DNA of 10,755 nt. It comes from an uncultured Bacteroidota bacterium (lineage in GTDB: Bacteria; Bacteroidota; Bacteroidia; Flavobacteriales; Flavobacteriaceae). The DNA is taken from the NCBI GenBank assembly GCA_903837025.1, contig CAILTC010000436.1, positions 1 to 10,755 on the forward strand, written 5' to 3'. Every line of letters starts with the position of its first letter. The stretch's first letter is position 1. The notes beneath the pieces are model-generated. The model searched no databases. It saw nothing but the letters and a program-made list of their open reading frames with translations, and was not told where the DNA came from. Made by a program: the position numbers and the translations under genes. Below, one piece after another: positions 2,541-10,755 of this stretch.

Positions 2541-2603
2541 AAAAATAAACTTTAAAATCCCAAAAATCAAATAACAAATTCCAAAAACTTTAAACTCCAA
2601 TCT
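2541..2603. repeat. Degenerate 7-bp-period array A (pcm / Gfo-Idh divergent intergenic)
   Basis: Read on the plus strand in steps of 7 from 2541, the sequence falls into nine A-rich heptamers. AAATCCC (2555), AAAAATC (2562), AAATAAC (2569) and AAATTCC (2576) are the clearest, each beginning AAA and ending in C. The array runs into the spurious upstream extension of pcm. It shares CAAAAATCAAA (2561-2571) with the reverse complement of the array at 5247. Its edges are approximate, since the outer units are weak. Confidence 0.6.
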
Positions 2604-2626
2604 TTAGACAATAAACAAATAAATTA

Positions 2627-2634
2627 TACATTTG
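2627..2634 (+). promoter_or_regulatory. -7 promoter element (TACATTTG) for the Gfo/Idh oxidoreductase
   Basis: TACATTTG matches TAnnTTTG exactly and ends 15 nt before the ATG at 2650, predicting a leader of roughly 11 nt. The -33 region has TTTAGACA at 2603-2610, only a loose match to TTG. The alternative TTG start at 2632 lies inside this box and is therefore unlikely. Confidence 0.6.
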
Positions 2635-2649
2635 TTAAAAATCATTTTT

Positions 2650-3615
2650 ATGTTGAAAGTAGGCGTTTTAGGTGCAGGACATCTTGGAAAAATACATTTA
2701 AGATTATTACAACAATCCGAAAAATACGAATTAGTGGGTTTTTATGATGAAAATCAAGAAAACGGAGAAAAAGTCGCCAAAGAATTTGGATACAAACACT
2801 TCTCGACAATAGCCTCCTTAATACATGCTGTCGATGTGATAGATATTGTAACACCTACGCTTTCGCATTATAAGTGTGCCAAGGTTTCGATTAAATCGGG
2901 CAAACATGTTTTTATAGAAAAACCAATTTCGAATACAGTCGCCGAAGCCGAAGAAATTATTGCTTTGGCCAAAGAATATAATGTAAAAGGTCAGGTAGGT
3001 CACGTAGAACGATTCAATCCTGCTTTCAAAGCGACAAAGGATATGATTGAAAATCCTATGTTTATCGAAACGCATCGCTTGGCCGAATTCAACCCTCGTG
3101 GCACCGATGTTCCCGTGGTACTTGACTTGATGATTCACGATATTGATGCCATTTTGAGCGTGGTTAATTCGAAAGTAAAATCAATTAACGCTAGTGGAGT
3201 TTCGGTAATTAGTGAAACTCCTGATATTGCCAATGCTCGAATTGAGTTCGAAAACGGATGCGTTGCCAATTTAACAGCTAGCCGAATATCACTCAAAAAT
3301 ATGCGTAAATCCCGTTTCTTCCAGAAAGATGCTTATATATCAGTTGACTTTTTGGAGAAAAGATGTGAGGTTGTAAAAATGAAAGAAGCTCCTGAAATTC
3401 CTGGAGATTTTGATATCATTCTACAAAATGCAGAAGGTGTAAAAAAACAAATCTACTTTTCGAATCCTGATGTCGAGCAAAACAACGCTATTCTTGACGA
3501 ATTAGAATCCTTTGCCGATGCCATCAACAACGATACAACTCCTGTCGTTACCTTAGAACAAGCAACAGAAGCTTTGCGTGTAGCTTACCAAATTATTGAT
3601 TGTTTTAAGAAGTAA
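2650..3615 (+). CDS. Gfo/Idh/MocA family NAD(P)-dependent oxidoreductase
   Basis: The 321-residue protein has the two-domain layout of the family. An N-terminal Rossmann fold carries GAGHLG (8-13), with acidic D33 after beta-2 suggesting NAD(H) preference. The hallmark EKP motif is at 90-92 in GKHVFIEKPIS. The C-terminal substrate domain carries HVERFNPAF (118-126) and DLMIHDIDA (159-167), whose His and Asp match the usual active-site positions. Members oxidise or reduce sugars or sugar nucleotides; some Bacteroidota relatives act on UDP-GlcNAc-type substrates, but the substrate here cannot be assigned. The start at ATG 2650 gives MLKVGVLGAG. An upstream TTG at 2632 overlaps the promoter box. 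A 20-bp hairpin follows the gene. Confidence 0.92.
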   Translation: MLKVGVLGAGHLGKIHLRLLQQSEKYELVGFYDENQENGEKVAKEFGYKHFSTIASLIHAVDVIDIVTPTLSHYKCAKVSIKSGKHVFIEKPISNTVAEAEEIIALAKEYNVKGQVGHVERFNPAFKATKDMIENPMFIETHRLAEFNPRGTDVPVVLDLMIHDIDAILSVVNSKVKSINASGVSVISETPDIANARIEFENGCVANLTASRISLKNMRKSRFFQKDAYISVDFLEKRCEVVKMKEAPEIPGDFDIILQNAEGVKKQIYFSNPDVEQNNAILDELESFADAINNDTTPVVTLEQATEALRVAYQIIDCFKK

Positions 3616-3627
3616 ATTAAATTGTCT

Positions 3628-3676
3628 AAAGTTTATGGTTCAAAGTTCTTTAGAGCAACTTTAAACCATAAACTTT
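3628..3676 (+). terminator. Long hairpin between Gfo/Idh gene and hydroxyacyl-CoA dehydrogenase, terminator-like
   Basis: Arms 3628-3647 and 3657-3676 are 20 nt each and complementary except for one position (3641), with a 9-nt loop. The GAATTTTT that follows gives a short T-run, so it could end Gfo/Idh transcription. The stem is AT-rich, however, and built from 7-bp units (AACTTTA, AACCATA, AACTTTG), so it may equally be an inverted repeat element. It starts 12 nt after the stop codon. Confidence 0.6.
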
Positions 3677-3698
3677 GAATTTTTAAACCAAAATATAT
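3628..3698. repeat. 7-bp-period array B, palindromic
   Basis: From 3657 the sequence reads as heptamers each starting with AA: AACTTTA (3657), AACCATA (3664), AACTTTG (3671), AATTTTT (3678), AAACCAA (3685). The left half has the inverse units GTTTATG (3631) and GTTCAAA (3638). The array thus consists of reverse-complement units followed by forward units, and these fold into the hairpin at 3628-3676. It reaches the ATG of the next gene at 3697. Confidence 0.6.
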
Positions 3699-4584
3699 GA
3701 AAATAATAGCTATAATCGGAGCAGGAACAATGGGCAACGGGATTGCACATACTTTTGCACAAAGTGGTTTCACCGTAAAACTGATCGATGTTTCCGAGAA
3801 ATCTTTGGATAAAGGAATGACTACTATTTTTGCCAATTTAGATCGAATGGTTGCCAAAGGAACCATTACTGAGGAAGATAAATTCAAAACCATAAACAAT
3901 ATTATTACGTATACCGACCTCAAAGATGGTGTTGTAGGTGTTGATTTAGTCGTTGAAGCTGCCACCGAAAACGTTGAATTAAAACTCGCTATTTTCAAGC
4001 AATTGAACGAGGCTTGTTCTCACAATACGATATTAGCGACGAATACTTCTTCTATTTCAATCACTCAGATTGGTGCCGTTGTCGCGCATCCGGAACGCGT
4101 TATTGGAATGCACTTCATGAATCCAGTGCCAATTATGAAACTAGTCGAAATTATTCGCGGTTACAATACGAGCGACGAAGTGACGAAAATCATTATGGAA
4201 TTATCCGAAAAACTGGGTAAAACTCCCGTTGAAGTCAATGATTATCCTGGTTTTGTAGCCAATAGAATTTTGATGCCCATGATCAACGAGGCCATCGAAA
4301 CCTTATACAACAAAGTAGCTGGCGTTTACGAAATTGATACCGTGATGAAACTCGGAATGGGTCACCCAATGGGACCTCTACAATTAGCTGATTTCATTGG
4401 CCTTGATGTATGTCTTGCTATTTTGAATGTGATGTATGATGGATTCAAAAACCCAAAATACGCGCCTTGTCCTTTATTAATAAATATGGTTCGCGCAGGA
4501 AAAATGGGCGTGAAATCTGGTGAAGGTTTTTATGATTATAGCGAAAGTAAAAAAGCAGAGAAAATCTCGAAACAGTTTAATTAA
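3697..4584 (+). CDS. 3-hydroxyacyl-CoA (3-hydroxybutyryl-CoA) dehydrogenase
   Basis: It oxidises (3S)-3-hydroxyacyl-CoA to 3-oxoacyl-CoA with NAD, or does the reverse, in fatty-acid or butyrate-type metabolism; it is soluble. The 295-residue, single-function (Hbd-type) protein has the N-terminal NAD-binding domain with GAGTMG (8-13) and D31 at the end of beta-2. The active-site residues are in place: S118 in NTSS, H139 in GMHFMNPVP with E151 forming the His-Glu pair, and N189 in GFVANR. The C-terminal domain has GHPMGPLQLADFIGLD (222-237). No enoyl-CoA hydratase domain is fused. The stop is followed after 1 nt by the yggS ATG, so the two are almost certainly co-transcribed and possibly translationally coupled. 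Confidence 0.94.
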   Translation: MKIIAIIGAGTMGNGIAHTFAQSGFTVKLIDVSEKSLDKGMTTIFANLDRMVAKGTITEEDKFKTINNIITYTDLKDGVVGVDLVVEAATENVELKLAIFKQLNEACSHNTILATNTSSISITQIGAVVAHPERVIGMHFMNPVPIMKLVEIIRGYNTSDEVTKIIMELSEKLGKTPVEVNDYPGFVANRILMPMINEAIETLYNKVAGVYEIDTVMKLGMGHPMGPLQLADFIGLDVCLAILNVMYDGFKNPKYAPCPLLINMVRAGKMGVKSGEGFYDYSESKKAEKISKQFN

Positions 4585-4585
4585 T

Positions 4586-5248
4586 ATGTCAATAGCACAA
4601 AACCTCCTCAAAATAAAATCGACTTTACCCGAAAACGTAACGCTTGTTGCCGTTTCTAAAACCAAACCTATTCCTGATTTGATGGAAGCCTACGATGCTG
4701 GTCAACGTATTTTTGGCGAAAACAAAATTCAGGAAATGGCCGAGAAATGGGAAGCGATGCCAAAAGATATTCAATGGCACATGATTGGTCACGTTCAGAC
4801 GAATAAGGTCAAATTTATGGCAGAATTCGTAAGCCTAATTCATGGTGTTGATAGCCTGAAATTAGTAGACGAAATCAACAAACAAGCGAAAAAAAACAAT
4901 AGAATAATCGATTGTTTTCTTCAAATACATATTGCCGAAGAAGAAACTAAATTTGGCCTTGACGAAAAAGAACTCCATGAGATTCTTGCTTCTACAGCAT
5001 TTCAAGAAATGAAAAACATTAGAATTGTGGGATTAATGGGAATGGCAACTTTCACTAATAATCAAGATCAAATTAAGAAAGAATTCACGCATTTGAAAAC
5101 GATTTTTGATTCCTGTCAAAATCTGAAATCTGAAAACTGCAATCTGAAATCTATTTCCATGGGAATGTCTGGCGATTATCAACTCGCAATTGAATGCGGA
5201 AGTACGATGGTTCGGATAGGAAGTAGTATCTTTGGGGGAAGAATTTGA
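4586..5248 (+). CDS. yggS: YggS/PROSC family pyridoxal-phosphate homeostasis protein
   Basis: YggS proteins bind PLP on a TIM-barrel fold and buffer vitamin B6 and amino-acid pools; no catalytic activity is established. The 220-residue protein has the PLP lysine K25 in AVSKTKP, then FGENKIQEM (43-51), WHMIGHVQTNK (64-74), GLMGMAT (149-155), and the phosphate-binding C-terminus MGMSGDYQLAIECGSTMVRIGSSIFG (192-217). The start at ATG 4586 is chosen because it lies 1 nt after the upstream stop and gives the family N-terminus; the frame is open further upstream into the preceding gene. Residues 172-191, just before MGMSGD, are encoded by a 7-bp-period repeat and are longer than the corresponding loop of E. 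coli YggS. The TGA stop lies at the edge of a second array. Confidence 0.95.
   Translation: MSIAQNLLKIKSTLPENVTLVAVSKTKPIPDLMEAYDAGQRIFGENKIQEMAEKWEAMPKDIQWHMIGHVQTNKVKFMAEFVSLIHGVDSLKLVDEINKQAKKNNRIIDCFLQIHIAEEETKFGLDEKELHEILASTAFQEMKNIRIVGLMGMATFTNNQDQIKKEFTHLKTIFDSCQNLKSENCNLKSISMGMSGDYQLAIECGSTMVRIGSSIFGGRI
5101..5156. repeat. 7-bp-period array C inside yggS
   Basis: Eight consecutive heptamers in register: GATTTTT (5101), GATTCCT (5108), a transition unit, then TCTGAAA (5122, 5129, 5143) with variants ACTGCAA (5136) and TCTATTT (5150). The GATT units followed by CTGAA units repeat the architecture of array D about 150 bp downstream. Because 7 is not a multiple of 3, the peptide repeats only every three units, seen as NLKS at 179-182 and 186-189. 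GATTTTTGA and TCAAAATC (5101-5123) can pair as a small stem. Confidence 0.75.
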
Positions 5249-5323
5249 TTTTTGATTGAAGATTAACGATTTTTGATTTCAGATTTGACACTGAACACTA
5301 AAAACTGAACACTGAACACTTAT
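5247..5323. repeat. 7-bp-period array D filling the yggS-exonuclease junction
   Basis: Eleven uninterrupted heptamers (77 bp). Six start with GATT: GATTTTT at 5247 and 5268, GATTGAA at 5254, GATTAAC at 5261, GATTTCA at 5275, GATTTGA at 5282. Five are of the type CACTGAA: 5289 and 5310, with variants at 5296, 5303 and 5317. The first unit supplies the last two bases of the yggS TGA stop, and the last unit ends 1 nt before the TTG start of the next gene. The whole intergenic spacer is therefore repeat. GATTTTTGATT at 5247-5257 recurs at 5268-5278 and in yggS at 5101-5111. Confidence 0.85.
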
Positions 5324-5324
5324 T

Positions 5325-6686
5325 TTGTACGCAATACTTGACATAGAAACTACCGGAGGGCAATTCAACGAAGAAGGAATTACCGAAATTGCGATTTATA
5401 AATTTGACGGTCACGAAATCGTGGATCAATTTATAAGTCTGGTCAATCCTGAAATTCCCATTCAGCCTTTTGTTGTAAAATTAACTGGAATCAATAATGA
5501 GATGTTACGCTCTGCTCCAAAGTTTTTTGAAGTGGCCAAACGTATTATAGAAATGACCAATGACTGCGTTCTCGTTGCTCACAATGCAGATTTTGATTAC
5601 CGAATTTTACGTACTGAATTTCGTCGTTTGGGTTATGACTTCAATATAAAAACGCTTTGTACTGTCGAATTATCAAAAAGATTATTACCCGAACAAACTT
5701 CACACAGCCTAGGAAAATTAGTGCGAGCTTTAGGAATTCCAATGGCTGACAGACATCGAGCTAGCGGTGACGCATTAGCAACCGTAAAACTATTCAAACT
5801 ACTATTAGACAAAGATTTAAATAAAGAAATTGTCAAAGATCTTATCAAATTTGAAGTTCAAAAAGGAATTGCACCAAAATTGATGGACATCGTAGAAAGT
5901 TTACCTTCAAAAACAGGAATTTATTACATTCATCGCGAAGATGGGAGCCTTCTTTTTATTGGTAAAAGTAAAAACATCCGAAAAAGAGTCAATCAGCATT
6001 TTACAGGAATCACACGAAGTGCCAAGAAAATCCAAACCGAAGTTTTCACCGTTACTTACGAAGAAACCGGAAGCGAATTAATTGCACTTTTGAAAGAATC
6101 CGAAGAAATCAAAATCAATAGACCAATCTATAATAGAATGTCACCAAAAAGTAATTTTTCGTGGTCAATATATGCCGAAAAAGATGCTAATGGTTATCTC
6201 AATTTGAAATTACAAAAAGCAGACGGCAGAAAAAAAGAAGTAAAATCATACACCTCCATGCAGGAAGGGAAAGAGGCGTTGGTTCGCATTACTTCCGATC
6301 ATAAATTATGTAAAAAACTGACCGGTTTGTATACGACAAAAACACATTGTCTCCAGCATAACACCAACGAATGCGATGGCGCATGCGCCGGAAAAATAAC
6401 TCCAAAAGAATATAATGAGCGCGTTCAAGAATTTATAGACAAGAATTTATTCGACAATAAAACGATGGTTATTGTTGATAAAGGTCGTACAGTTTCAGAA
6501 CGAAGTGCTATTTTAGTCGAAAATGGAGTCTATAAAGGATATGCATTTTATGATCTGAATTACCAAATCAACACACTAGATATTTTAAGAAACATTATCG
6601 TTCCCATGCAAAGCAACCGAGATACTCGAAACAGTATTCAAGCTTATCTCCGTAAAAATAAGTATTTAAAAATAGTAAATTTTTAA
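5325..6686 (+). CDS. DnaQ-like exonuclease fused to a UvrC N-terminal (GIY-YIG + Cys cluster) module
   Basis: This 453-residue protein joins two nuclease modules. Residues 1-165 form a DEDDh 3'-5' exonuclease like DNA polymerase III epsilon: D6 and E8 in LDIETTG, D91 in AHNADFDYRIL, and H144/D149 in HRASGDA. Residues about 190-270 form a GIY-YIG nuclease as in UvrC and Cho: TGIY (197-200), FIG (211-213), catalytic R221, and E258 before IKINRPIYN. Cysteines C329, C342, C350 and C354 match the spacing of the UvrC iron-sulfur cysteines. The UvrC C-terminal RNase H-like and helix-hairpin-helix domains are absent. A DNA-repair or proofreading role is likely but inferred. The start is TTG 5325, giving MYAILDIETTGG, because nothing else precedes the first catalytic Asp. 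No Shine-Dalgarno site is seen; the upstream base sequence is array D. Confidence 0.9.
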   Translation: MYAILDIETTGGQFNEEGITEIAIYKFDGHEIVDQFISLVNPEIPIQPFVVKLTGINNEMLRSAPKFFEVAKRIIEMTNDCVLVAHNADFDYRILRTEFRRLGYDFNIKTLCTVELSKRLLPEQTSHSLGKLVRALGIPMADRHRASGDALATVKLFKLLLDKDLNKEIVKDLIKFEVQKGIAPKLMDIVESLPSKTGIYYIHREDGSLLFIGKSKNIRKRVNQHFTGITRSAKKIQTEVFTVTYEETGSELIALLKESEEIKINRPIYNRMSPKSNFSWSIYAEKDANGYLNLKLQKADGRKKEVKSYTSMQEGKEALVRITSDHKLCKKLTGLYTTKTHCLQHNTNECDGACAGKITPKEYNERVQEFIDKNLFDNKTMVIVDKGRTVSERSAILVENGVYKGYAFYDLNYQINTLDILRNIIVPMQSNRDTRNSIQAYLRKNKYLKIVNF

Positions 6687-6765
6687 TTTTTTTTGAAGCT
6701 AATTCCCGCTATTTGTTACAAACGAAGTTCACTGAACTCCGATTAAAATGAATGTTAAGTGAAGT

Positions 6766-6803
6766 AATCTTTTCTTTTTCTAAAGAAAAAAAAGAAAAGG
6801 ATT
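6766..6803 (+). promoter_or_regulatory. Pyrimidine/purine hairpin immediately upstream of miaA
   Basis: A pyrimidine-rich arm (6766-6780) can pair with the purine-rich arm 6785-6803 across a TAAA loop, with a few unpaired A residues. The right arm contains AAAAGGA (6795-6801), a Shine-Dalgarno-like stretch 6 nt before the miaA ATG, so the hairpin could hide the ribosome-binding region. No T-run follows on the plus strand, which makes a simple terminator for the exonuclease gene less likely. The rest of the 121-bp spacer (6687-6807) shows only a short palindrome around GTTCACTGAAC (6727-6737) and no clear TAnnTTTG box. Confidence 0.45.
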
Positions 6804-6807
6804 TCCA

Positions 6808-7752
6808 ATGCTATCGGCGCTAAAAAACCATAAAATTTTGAACCAGAAAAAACTCATCGTAATTATAGGTCCTACAGCCATCGGAAAAACTTCCTTGAGC
6901 ATCGCTTTGGCGCAACATTTCAATTGCGATATTATTTCTTGCGACAGTCGTCAATTTTTCAAAGAAATGCAAATAGGAACTGCGGTTCCAACTACCGAAG
7001 AATTAGCTGGAGCCCAACATCATTTCATTCAAAACAAATCCATTTTCGAAAATTATACTGTTGGCGATTTCGAAAAAGAAGCCATTGCAAAACTAGACGA
7101 ATTATTTTTGACCAATGATTATGCGGTTCTAGTGGGCGGTTCTGGTTTGTATGTAGATGCTGTTTTGAAAGGCTTTGACGAGTTTCCCGAAATTGATGTT
7201 TTTGTTCGAGAAGAAGTCACTTCAAATTACGAGAAATTAGGTTTAGACTATTTACAAACCGAATTAGAAAAACGAGATCCCAACTATTTTTCGGTTGTAG
7301 CCAAAGAAAATCCACAACGAATGATGCGCGCTTTAGAAGTTTGCATCGGAAGCGGAAGACCGTATTCCACTTTTTTAAATCAGAAGAAAAACATACGAAA
7401 CTTCACTTCTATTCTTATCGGATTAGAAGCCGAGAGAAGCGTGATTTATGACCGAATTAACCAACGAGTTGACATCATGATCGATGAAGGTTTATTGGCT
7501 GAAGCCAAAGATTTATTTCCTCATAAAAACCTGAATGCTTTACAAACCGTAGGATACAGAGAATTATTCAGCTATTTTGAAGATGAAATTTCATTGGAAT
7601 TTGCCATCGAAGAAATCAAGAAAAATACCCGACGATTTGCTAAAAGACAACTCACTTGGTTCAAAAGAAATTCGGAAACAAAATGGTTTAATTATCTAAC
7701 TGATCGGAAAGAAATTATTCGTTTCTTAATTGAAAAAAATCATAAATCATAA
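6808..7752 (+). CDS. miaA: tRNA dimethylallyltransferase MiaA
   Basis: MiaA transfers dimethylallyl from DMAPP to N6 of A37 in tRNAs that read UNN codons, the first step to ms2i6A; it is cytoplasmic. The 314-residue protein has the P-loop GPTAIGKT (21-28), the DSRQ motif (46-49) with KEMQIGT following, GGSGLY (110-115), and NPQRMMRALEV (168-178) with GRP (183-185). The C-terminal RRFAKRQLTWFKR lies just before the end. The start at ATG 6808 gives about 10 residues more than the shortest homologues I know; no better ATG lies between it and the P-loop. The last residues NHKS and the TAA stop are encoded by the ATAAATC repeat array. It is probably co-transcribed with the thioesterase 29 bp downstream. 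Confidence 0.96.
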   Translation: MLSALKNHKILNQKKLIVIIGPTAIGKTSLSIALAQHFNCDIISCDSRQFFKEMQIGTAVPTTEELAGAQHHFIQNKSIFENYTVGDFEKEAIAKLDELFLTNDYAVLVGGSGLYVDAVLKGFDEFPEIDVFVREEVTSNYEKLGLDYLQTELEKRDPNYFSVVAKENPQRMMRALEVCIGSGRPYSTFLNQKKNIRNFTSILIGLEAERSVIYDRINQRVDIMIDEGLLAEAKDLFPHKNLNALQTVGYRELFSYFEDEISLEFAIEEIKKNTRRFAKRQLTWFKRNSETKWFNYLTDRKEIIRFLIEKNHKS

Positions 7753-7778
7753 ATCATAAATCATAATTCATAATTATT
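7737..7778. repeat. 7-bp-period array E across the miaA stop and into the thioesterase leader
   Basis: Four exact AAATCAT units (7737, 7744, 7751, 7758), then AATTCAT (7765) and a weaker AATTATT (7772). The array encodes the last codons and the stop of miaA and ends 3 nt before the thioesterase ATG at 7782, so it makes up nearly all of the spacer. All units have the same orientation, unlike arrays B, C and D. Confidence 0.85.
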
Positions 7779-9321: not shown

Positions 9322-10755
9322 CTAATTTATTAATGGTATTTTAATTATAAAGGTACTTCCTTTTCCCTTTTCACTTTCTACATAAATTTGACCATTATGA
9401 TCGTCAACTATCTTTTTTACATAAGCCAGACCTAAACCATGACCTTTTACATTATGTAAATCTCCGGTATGTTCTCGATAAAATTTTTCAAAAACCCTTT
9501 TTTGAGCTATTTTACTCATTCCTATCCCGTTATCTTTTATTTTGATAATCATATAATCTTTTACATTTTCTGTAAAAACATCAATCTTCGGAATTGATGG
9601 TGAATACTTAATTGCATTCTCCAAAATATTAACAATTACATTTATAAAATGGACTTCATTTACCAAAACAGTTGTTCGAACGGCATTAAAATGTTTGGTA
9701 ATTGTTCCTTCTCTATCTTCTAAAATCAAACTTACATGCTCAATCGCATCTTCTATAACCTCTTGAATGTTGCTAGATTCCTTGACAATATCAAGCTCTT
9801 TCTTTTCTAATTTAGAAATTCGTAACACATTCTCCACTTGAGCATGCATCCGTTTATTTTCATCCTTGATCATTTGCAAATACTTGAGAACTTTTTCTTT
9901 ATCATCTATAATTTTAGGATTTCTGATAGCATCTAAAGCCAAATTTATCGTCGCAATAGGAGTTTTAAACTCATGTGTCATATTATTTATGAAATCTGAT
10001 TTTATTTCAGAAATATGTCGTTGACGAATCAATTGGTTCAAGGCACTTGTGTAAGCTATTATAATTATCAACGTAAAAATAATCGACAATAGTGTAATTC
10101 CTGCAAGATCTGTTAGCAAAAACTTCTTTTTATACGGAAATGAAACTAATAATTGGTATTTACTATTTCCTTCATTATCAGAAAATATAGGAATAGAATA
10201 GGTTGTATTTTTATCGTATTTAAAACCATCCGACTTCACTTTTGTAGCTAAACCATTACTATAAATGCCATAATCAAATTTAGTTTTAACTCCATATTCT
10301 TCCAATTCTTTCTTCAAAAGTTTCGCTAAACTTTCTTTCGAAACCCTTTCTTGTATCGGCATTGTAGCCGCTAAATCCTTAAAGAAAATCTCAAACTGAG
10401 CATTATCCAATATGTCAAGATTTCCTGATTTTTCAATCTTAATATCAGGTGTTAATTTATGCTGAAGCCGCGAATTATCAAATCTATTATTATCATAAAC
10501 CTCGGTAACTCGTTTCGAATTAAAACTTTTAAATTTTACACTATCAAATTTTTTATCGAAGAACGTTGCCGAAACATTATAATCTTCGGCTGAAACACTA
10601 TTTGAATATATGATTGTCTGATTTGTTTTACTATTTTTCTGAATGTAATAAAACTGTAATAAATCATTTTTCTGCGGAATCTTTCCAGTACTGTCCTTAT
10701 ATTTATTGTATTTATTATAAAAAGTATAAGCTTCCTGTTTCTGTATTTTATCCGC
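9322..10755 (-). CDS. Membrane sensor histidine kinase, 5' end beyond the window (RprX-like)
   Basis: The frame stays open on the minus strand from the stop at 9322 to the right edge, giving at least 477 residues. The TTG at 10410 is internal, since about 115 codons without a stop precede it in frame. The visible N-terminal 200 or so residues are hydrophilic and likely a periplasmic sensor region. One transmembrane helix follows (LAGITLLSIIFTLIIIIAY, near 10110-10050). Then comes the DHp domain with phosphorylated His in NNMTHEFKTPIATI (codon 9973-9975), and the HATPase_c domain with N-box NILENAIKYS, G1 DNGIGM, F-box EKFYR and G2 GHGLGLAYV. The helix connects almost directly to the DHp domain, with no room for a HAMP domain. 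A first transmembrane helix presumably lies outside the window. Gene order kinase then regulator matches RprX-RprY. Confidence 0.93.
   Translation of the reverse strand, partial: ADKIQKQEAYTFYNKYNKYKDSTGKIPQKNDLLQFYYIQKNSKTNQTIIYSNSVSAEDYNVSATFFDKKFDSVKFKSFNSKRVTEVYDNNRFDNSRLQHKLTPDIKIEKSGNLDILDNAQFEIFFKDLAATMPIQERVSKESLAKLLKKELEEYGVKTKFDYGIYSNGLATKVKSDGFKYDKNTTYSIPIFSDNEGNSKYQLLVSFPYKKKFLLTDLAGITLLSIIFTLIIIIAYTSALNQLIRQRHISEIKSDFINNMTHEFKTPIATINLALDAIRNPKIIDDKEKVLKYLQMIKDENKRMHAQVENVLRISKLEKKELDIVKESSNIQEVIEDAIEHVSLILEDREGTITKHFNAVRTTVLVNEVHFINVIVNILENAIKYSPSIPKIDVFTENVKDYMIIKIKDNGIGMSKIAQKRVFEKFYREHTGDLHNVKGHGLGLAYVKKIVDDHNGQIYVESEKGKGSTFIIKIPLIN

Follow-up and report, generated by a model that had tools for sequence, protein, structure and literature searches.

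A 10,755-nucleotide stretch of DNA from an uncultured Flavobacteriaceae bacterium (contig C436 of a 3.14-Mb, 665-contig genome; hereafter the window), whose closest named relatives are Flavobacteriaceae and Flavobacterium records, contains arrays of degenerate heptanucleotide repeats in and around a block of genes that runs from pcm to an acyl-ACP thioesterase gene. These arrays belong to a heptamer family in which period 7 is over-represented throughout the genus, both relative to chance and relative to other periods. At orthologous sites of related species the period is retained while the repeated unit changes, and one of these sites lies within the coding sequence of yggS.

A preliminary description of the window had read five places in unbroken steps of 7 nt. 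Each was compared with 2000 dinucleotide shuffles of its own stretch, using a period-7 score, the identity between positions 7 nt apart (lag-7 identity) and the best score over periods 4-12. Three of them (5101-5156, 5247-5323 and 7737-7778) are strong period-7 arrays, in that 0 of 2000 shuffles reach any of the three values, and Tandem Repeats Finder (TRF) places period-7 rows at 5119-5152, 5244-5279, 5288-5320 and 7737-7773. The first is a forward-strand AAATCTG array inside yggS, encoding the loop QNLKSENCNLKS that precedes SMGMSGDY. The second fills the spacer between yggS and the exonuclease gene (exo) in two halves: 5247-5286 is a reverse-oriented array (GATTNNN on the forward strand), within which 5260-5286 is the inverted partner of 5126-5152 (74% complementary), and 5287-5323 is a forward ACTGAAC array that adjoins the TTG start of exo. 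The third, a forward AAATCAT array with a lag-7 identity of 32/35, overlaps the last part of miaA, including its stop codon, and constitutes the thioesterase leader. The arrays are thus located at gene boundaries in the window, as they are in its relatives and in the genus sample described below, and the earlier statements that one array enters a coding region and that one supplies a stop codon are borne out.

The claim of unbroken heptamers does not extend to the other two places. In the divergent gap between pcm and the Gfo/Idh oxidoreductase gene (gfo), 2541-2603 is a marginal, weak array: its lag-7 identity (34/56) is reached by 3 of 2000 shuffles, its local period-7 score by 235 and its best score over periods 4-12 by 1023, and TRF on the window returns no row there. 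There is no convincing array at 3628-3698, where the lag-7 identity (28/64), local score and best-of-periods score are reached by 39, 150 and 938 of 2000 shuffles, respectively, and where TRF reports a period-22 row at 3660-3701; the main feature of this place is an intercistronic hairpin. The loose NNNAA(A/T)C pattern ascribed to most units fits some of them, but the reverse-oriented half of the yggS-exo spacer runs opposite to it and is followed by ACTGAAC-type units. A short additional TRF period-7 row lies at 9359-9377, outside the five places.

The excess of period 7 is not confined to the window. In the orthologous loci of the best 80 of 568 relatives (1.54 Mb, scanned with a local period score), period 7 accounts for 68 segments, compared with 0-4 for any other period between 2 and 11; higher numbers are seen at periods 12 (18) and 19 (8) and at the harmonics 14 (28) and 21 (17). 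Because most of these period-7 segments occupy a few recurring sites, a second sample was drawn from the genus, comprising 55 stretches from 35 genomes (1.096 Mb) taken from contig 1 at offsets fixed beforehand, with no choice based on repeats; of 80 stretches requested in the sampling, 14 were nonexistent and hence left out. The genus sample contains 31 period-7 segments (26 intergenic), with 0-6 at each of the other periods from 4 to 13 and 17 at each of the harmonic periods 14 and 21, and Markov sequence of order 2 or 4 predicts 0.125-0.375 period-7 segments per intergenic total. The gene calls used in these scans are open reading frames of at least 100 codons, a crude criterion that misplaces the pcm and exonuclease starts in the window, so the coding shares of arrays are approximate.

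Arrays were also counted at other taxonomic distances. The genome of the window has two in 150 kb (38 contigs, with two further contigs chosen by repeat match kept separate), other genera of the family have three in 100 kb (5 stretches, two of the arrays being neighbors in one spacer), the order and class levels have two in 205 kb (11 stretches, both arrays in one) and the rest of the phylum has one in 295 kb (15 stretches). The yggS neighborhoods of a second genus of the family, a set that omits the paralogue locus L238, hold two in 106 kb (29 loci). Among 61 genomes of the genus, 23 contain the exact string (AATTCAT)2AATTC and 6 contain the reversed control, whereas (AAATCTG)2AAATC occurs in 2 of 118 genomes of the phylum, both from this genus and one of them the genome of the window, versus 0 of 118 for its control. 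The preliminary description had staked its proposal on a period-7 excess over shuffled sequence and elsewhere, and such an excess is present in the stretches and relatives checked.

When orthologous junctions are compared, the unit changes but the period does not. Among periods 4-13, period 7 scores best in 40 of 72 pcm-gfo junctions, 27 of 63 between gfo and the 3-hydroxyacyl-CoA dehydrogenase gene (hbd), 55 of 65 yggS-exo junctions and 38 of 54 miaA-thioesterase junctions; it is the commonest best period at the junctions of the 80 relatives, in line with the earlier view that register is kept while letters drift. At miaA-thioesterase, where the window has four AAATCAT units and one AATTCAT, an AATTCAT-type array is matched in 22 of 76 junctions, and simple rules assign the AAATCTA type to 16 and the AACTTCT type to 1, with 33 of the 76 in none of the types. 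The right flank AATTATTTAT is identical in 11 of these junctions, and next to it the copy number ranges from 1 to 6 in whole heptamers; heptamer copy number at this junction therefore varies by whole units between species. Before exo, the word CTGA[AT][CT]AC is found in 46 of 65 spacers, in at least two copies in 31. A conserved exonuclease leader was considered and rejected, given a median identity to the consensus of 0.56 at fixed offset; only the word family recurs. The yggS-exo spacers of three loci (L028, L030 and L065) hold other repeat-like palindromes.

Units are barely more similar within a genome than between genomes. A genome-specific dictionary of units was accordingly judged unconvincing (p 0.25 for 27 pairs among the relatives, p 0.048 for 40 pairs in the random sample). 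The units have a weak profile in common, about half pyrimidine and half purine, that exceeds all 20 column-permuted controls.

The array inside yggS displays the same turnover within a protein-coding context. Arrays of AATCTGA, AACTGAA, AATTCAC, AACCCAA, AACTTCT or AATTGTC are present in the loops of 36 of 81 sequences; by short motifs, 16 of the 81 are palindrome-type, and 29 are of neither type by these rules. In the 42 loops of standard length, the mean lag-7 identity is 0.58, compared with 0.26 in 5142 control windows, and 27 of them exceed the 99th percentile of those windows; the values at lags 5, 6, 9, 10 and 11 are close to baseline, with lag 8 at 0.34 versus 0.26. Among the 36 array-bearing loops and their six classes, at least 16 class changes are required on a tree of exo and hbd and at least 14 on a tree of yggS without the loop. 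Both are quick trees that leave 23 and 25 of their 78 inner branches unresolved, and the list of the most distant pairs of one class, being affected by misalignment, was disregarded. On the latter tree, 200 label shuffles give at least 17 changes (mean 21.3), and the smaller observed number indicates some inheritance alongside frequent change. Transfer of the whole yggS gene was considered as a source of the unit swaps and found insufficient, since 14 changes persist when the loop is excluded from the tree. YggS has solved relatives (e.g., 6kzw and 1w8g), and in two aligned ones the loop is one residue shorter. Being nearly length-neutral in this comparison, the array looks like a rewriting of the loop and not like an insertion into it. 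At L004:9770-9795, at L006:5621-5646 and in the yggS loop of other relatives, a palindromic element TAGAGACGC...GCGTCTCTA replaces the heptamer array within the coding loop; its exact form is present in 2 of 238 loci.

Thirty arrays of the genus sample were classified by their placement near genes, one edge array being left out: 19 lie in gaps between co-directional genes, 4 in divergent gaps, 2 in convergent gaps and 5 in called coding sequence. In the co-directional gaps, the A-rich strand is the sense strand in 16 of 19 arrays (baseline 0.475, p 0.001), and the array ends no more than 9 nt from the next start codon in 9 of 19 (baseline 0.05, p 1e-7). A preference for co-directional gaps as such was dropped (19 of 25 arrays versus 0.588 of gap bases, p 0.058), as was the idea that the units exist to supply a stop in each reading frame: a stop codon is found in 15 of 19 sense units, versus 12.4 expected from permuted units.

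These arrays are probably heptanucleotide long simple-sequence repeats that were born and homogenized locally by misalignment over 7 nt, and that are maybe favored as unstructured leaders. Strand misalignment during replication would add and remove copies, and out-of-register copying would pass letters between units, so that register is passed on even as the letters drift. Arrays would then persist where added or altered bases do little harm, as in spacers, at gene ends and in one variable protein loop. Misaligned copying over 7 nt is suggested by the stepwise copy number, the local character of the units and a lag-7 bias of base changes: among 78 small terminal changes, the derived base matches the base 7 nt away in 33 of 115 comparisons (0.287 versus 0.210 expected; p 0.03, uncorrected for 13 lags), and of lags 3-15 only lag 7 is above expectation. 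A form of this test without the restriction to small changes was dropped because replaced arrays inflate it. Beside start codons, sense-strand arrays could provide an A-rich, unstructured leader that suits ribosomes initiating without Shine-Dalgarno pairing; in a study of F. johnsoniae, translation initiation is described as tuned by low structure and upstream adenines (PMC6847099). Judging only by position and orientation, selection for such leaders is perhaps at work.

Several observations weigh against local misalignment as a full account. The arrays of the 80 loci are concentrated in one operon, with 66 of 68 in the pcm-thioesterase block (645 kb) and 2 in 895 kb of flanks, a clustering not expected if mutation acts uniformly. 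The sign of templating is weak, and among the 27 yggS loops of highest periodicity the within-array lag-7 identity (0.693) is only slightly greater than the same-site identity between species (0.640), which does not show strong homogenization there. Furthermore, slippage alone does not explain the swaps, since yggS loops vary between 10 and 22 residues in length and the steps that separate close pairs are 3 or 9 nt rather than 7. Part of the sense bias is to be expected, since A exceeds T in the last 35 nt before starts in 0.659 of gaps. Finally, the recurrence of ACTGAAC-type words before exo and the weak common unit profile may each hint at selection on the letters themselves. A register-copying process in Flavobacteriaceae, in which out-of-register templating keeps rewriting certain sites with 7-nt periodic DNA at unchanged length, leaving even a conserved enzyme gene (yggS) with a constantly changing heptamer array in one loop, seems improbable.

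Selection on the register could also come from a sequence-tolerant RNA- or DNA-binding protein (S1-, Csp- or Csr-like) for which the arrays are sites, and MacGregor (2015; PMC4679880) proposes such a reader for the TAACTGA repeats of Maribeggiatoa. Sense orientation, proximity to start codons, the recurring exonuclease words and a unit profile above its permuted controls are all what a reader might produce; but the units of a single junction vary widely among close species, arrays also occupy a coding loop as well as convergent and divergent gaps, and the exonuclease leaders are poorly conserved at fixed offset, making this a rather unlikely explanation. For yggS specifically, the periodicity could be largely a by-product of the protein, because the codons of N-C-x-L-K-T already have a 7-nt repeat and may have seeded the array. 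Loops of the second genus have motifs like N-C-x-L-K-T and a lag-7 identity of 0.41 in the absence of clear arrays (29 loops, one with an in-frame stop), and the loop one residue shorter in solved relatives fits as well. The standard-length loops nonetheless average 0.58, with 27 of 42 above the 99th percentile of control windows, units such as FTIHNSQFTI and KPKTQNLEPKT hold the period with different residues, and the spacer arrays are not explicable in this manner. We take the protein by-product to be a somewhat unlikely source of the yggS pattern.

Recombination would account for unit turnover if a few array alleles were swapped between species or if arrays recombined with arrays at other loci of the genome. 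Consistent with this are an identical 36-nt yggS loop in L011 and L019, an irregular CTAGAAC unit common to L003, L007, L008, L015 and L033, and pairs with differing loops and upstream flanks that are nevertheless 0.80-0.97 identical (L003/window, L035/L047 and L019/L023), in a comparison where some far upstream bins (L011/L019, L011/L031 and L007/L015) look misaligned. Against it stand the class changes that remain on the yggS tree without the loop and the scarcity of genome-specific unit similarity, and we give recombination little credence as the principal process. A mobile or reverse-transcriptase-like process that writes the arrays or spreads them is not favored as their origin and appears very improbable. 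Such an origin can draw on the concentration of arrays at particular junctions and on palindromes, other repeat elements, at identical spots in other species, yet units have no clear genome specificity, which counts against dispersal by copying, and the yggS loop is nearly length-neutral.

The element at 3628-3676 on the forward strand, between gfo and hbd, is separate from the heptamer arrays and is an intercistronic RNA hairpin. Its arms, which consist of heptamer-like words, are 20 nt long, 95% complementary and separated by 9 nt. The RNA z value is -5.0 in the window, with a median of -4.26 across 60 gfo-hbd junctions, 37 of which are below -2. In an alignment of 21 sequences chosen for a common AAAGTTT-type stem, from which the stem-bearing L030, L054, L058 and L074 were omitted, both sides change in 8 of 20 pairs (13 cells versus 2.9 shuffled, 0 of 500), and the stem covariation of 0.152 compares with at most 0.088 in slid versions; further pair types (15 versus 12.8, reached by 49 of 500 shuffles) are not significant in these 21 sequences. 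The structure is thus maintained by compensatory change among the stem-sharing sequences. Elsewhere (e.g., L028, L031, L062, L067 and L069), the AAAGTTT hairpin at this junction gives way to a long TAGCCACGAATTCAC...GTGAATTCGTGGCTA-type palindrome. Together, the covariation and the unrelated palindromes suggest that structure is kept here while sequence is exchanged. A proposed role of the repeats as mRNA hairpins at junctions therefore holds for gfo-hbd but not for the miaA-thioesterase leaders, whose predicted structure does not go beyond shuffles (median z 0.08, n=41). Rfam has no match in the window at the gathering score.

The nearest precedent had been sought in the heptamers of cyanobacteria, which go by the name STRR, with none suggested for flavobacteria. 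In fact, heptamer arrays as such are known in several phyla. Heptanucleotides are over-represented among the longer repeat units of prokaryotes, for which slippage has been proposed (Mrazek 2007, cited in PMC4679880 and PMC4692102); the present arrays share this over-representation, but their units are degenerate, and a single site can carry different units in different species. Direct repeats of TAACTGA occur in marine Beggiatoaceae, in cyanobacteria and in five Bacteroidetes, namely Flexibacter, Paludibacter, Gramella, Aequorivita and Elizabethkingia (MacGregor 2015; PMC4679880), which gives heptamer arrays a precedent within the phylum. Like ours, these are spacer heptamers, and those of BOGUAY are mostly forward and close before start codons. 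The sense orientation and start proximity of the present arrays (16/19 and 9/19) form a likeness rather than a sign of membership: the TAACTGA repeats have one exact unit whereas ours vary, none of 238 loci contains a TAACTGA pair, and the window has a singleton at chance level (1.55 expected).

Other systems resemble the arrays in part. The GGGAATC and GGGGA(C/T)T repeats of Xanthomonas and Nostoc (Rehm 2015; PMC4692102) also lie between the same genes in related species, vary in length and sequence and form inverted pairs. Their units are G-rich and quadruplex forming, in contrast to the A/T-rich arrays described here; no run of three G is present on either strand of the three strong window arrays. 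The tandem heptamers of the cyanobacterium Calothrix (cited in PMC4692102) are alike, by description, in tandem heptamer organization only. In Geobacter metallireducens, elements of four or five tandem heptamers include a 49-member family located in and between genes (PMC2700814), and these differ in having fixed consensus units and forming multi-copy families matched by BLAST. For the preference for seven among longer bacterial tandem repeats, a conjecture about polymerase contacts is the only explanation that we found in print (PMC4679880, PMC4692102). We found no description in the open-access literature of degenerate, species-variable heptamers in Flavobacterium, and the new part is the change of units at fixed sites, one of them inside yggS. 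With a fixed period and unit turnover among close species in a genus amenable to cultivation and genetic engineering, accounts based on slippage, templating and selection become separable.

By Pfam, the gene order of the window is pcm (reverse strand), the Gfo/Idh oxidoreductase gene, hbd, yggS, exo, miaA, the acyl-ACP thioesterase gene downstream of miaA, and a response regulator gene (reverse strand). YggS (4586-5248, forward strand) is a pyridoxal phosphate (PLP) homeostasis protein with an Ala_racemase_N domain (PF01168, 2.3e-21), and MiaA (6808-7752, forward strand) is a tRNA dimethylallyltransferase (IPPT, 2.4e-76). The exonuclease has an RNase_T domain and a TTG start at 5325; the aligned sequences have TTG at this position in 63 of 81 cases, ATG in 17 and ATT in 1. 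Three of the loci, L008, L033 and L055, are titled Lentimicrobium, Klebsiella pneumoniae and Bifidobacterium and are probably mislabeled metagenome bins; their contigs have the Flavobacterium block of genes described here, with proteins 77-89% identical.

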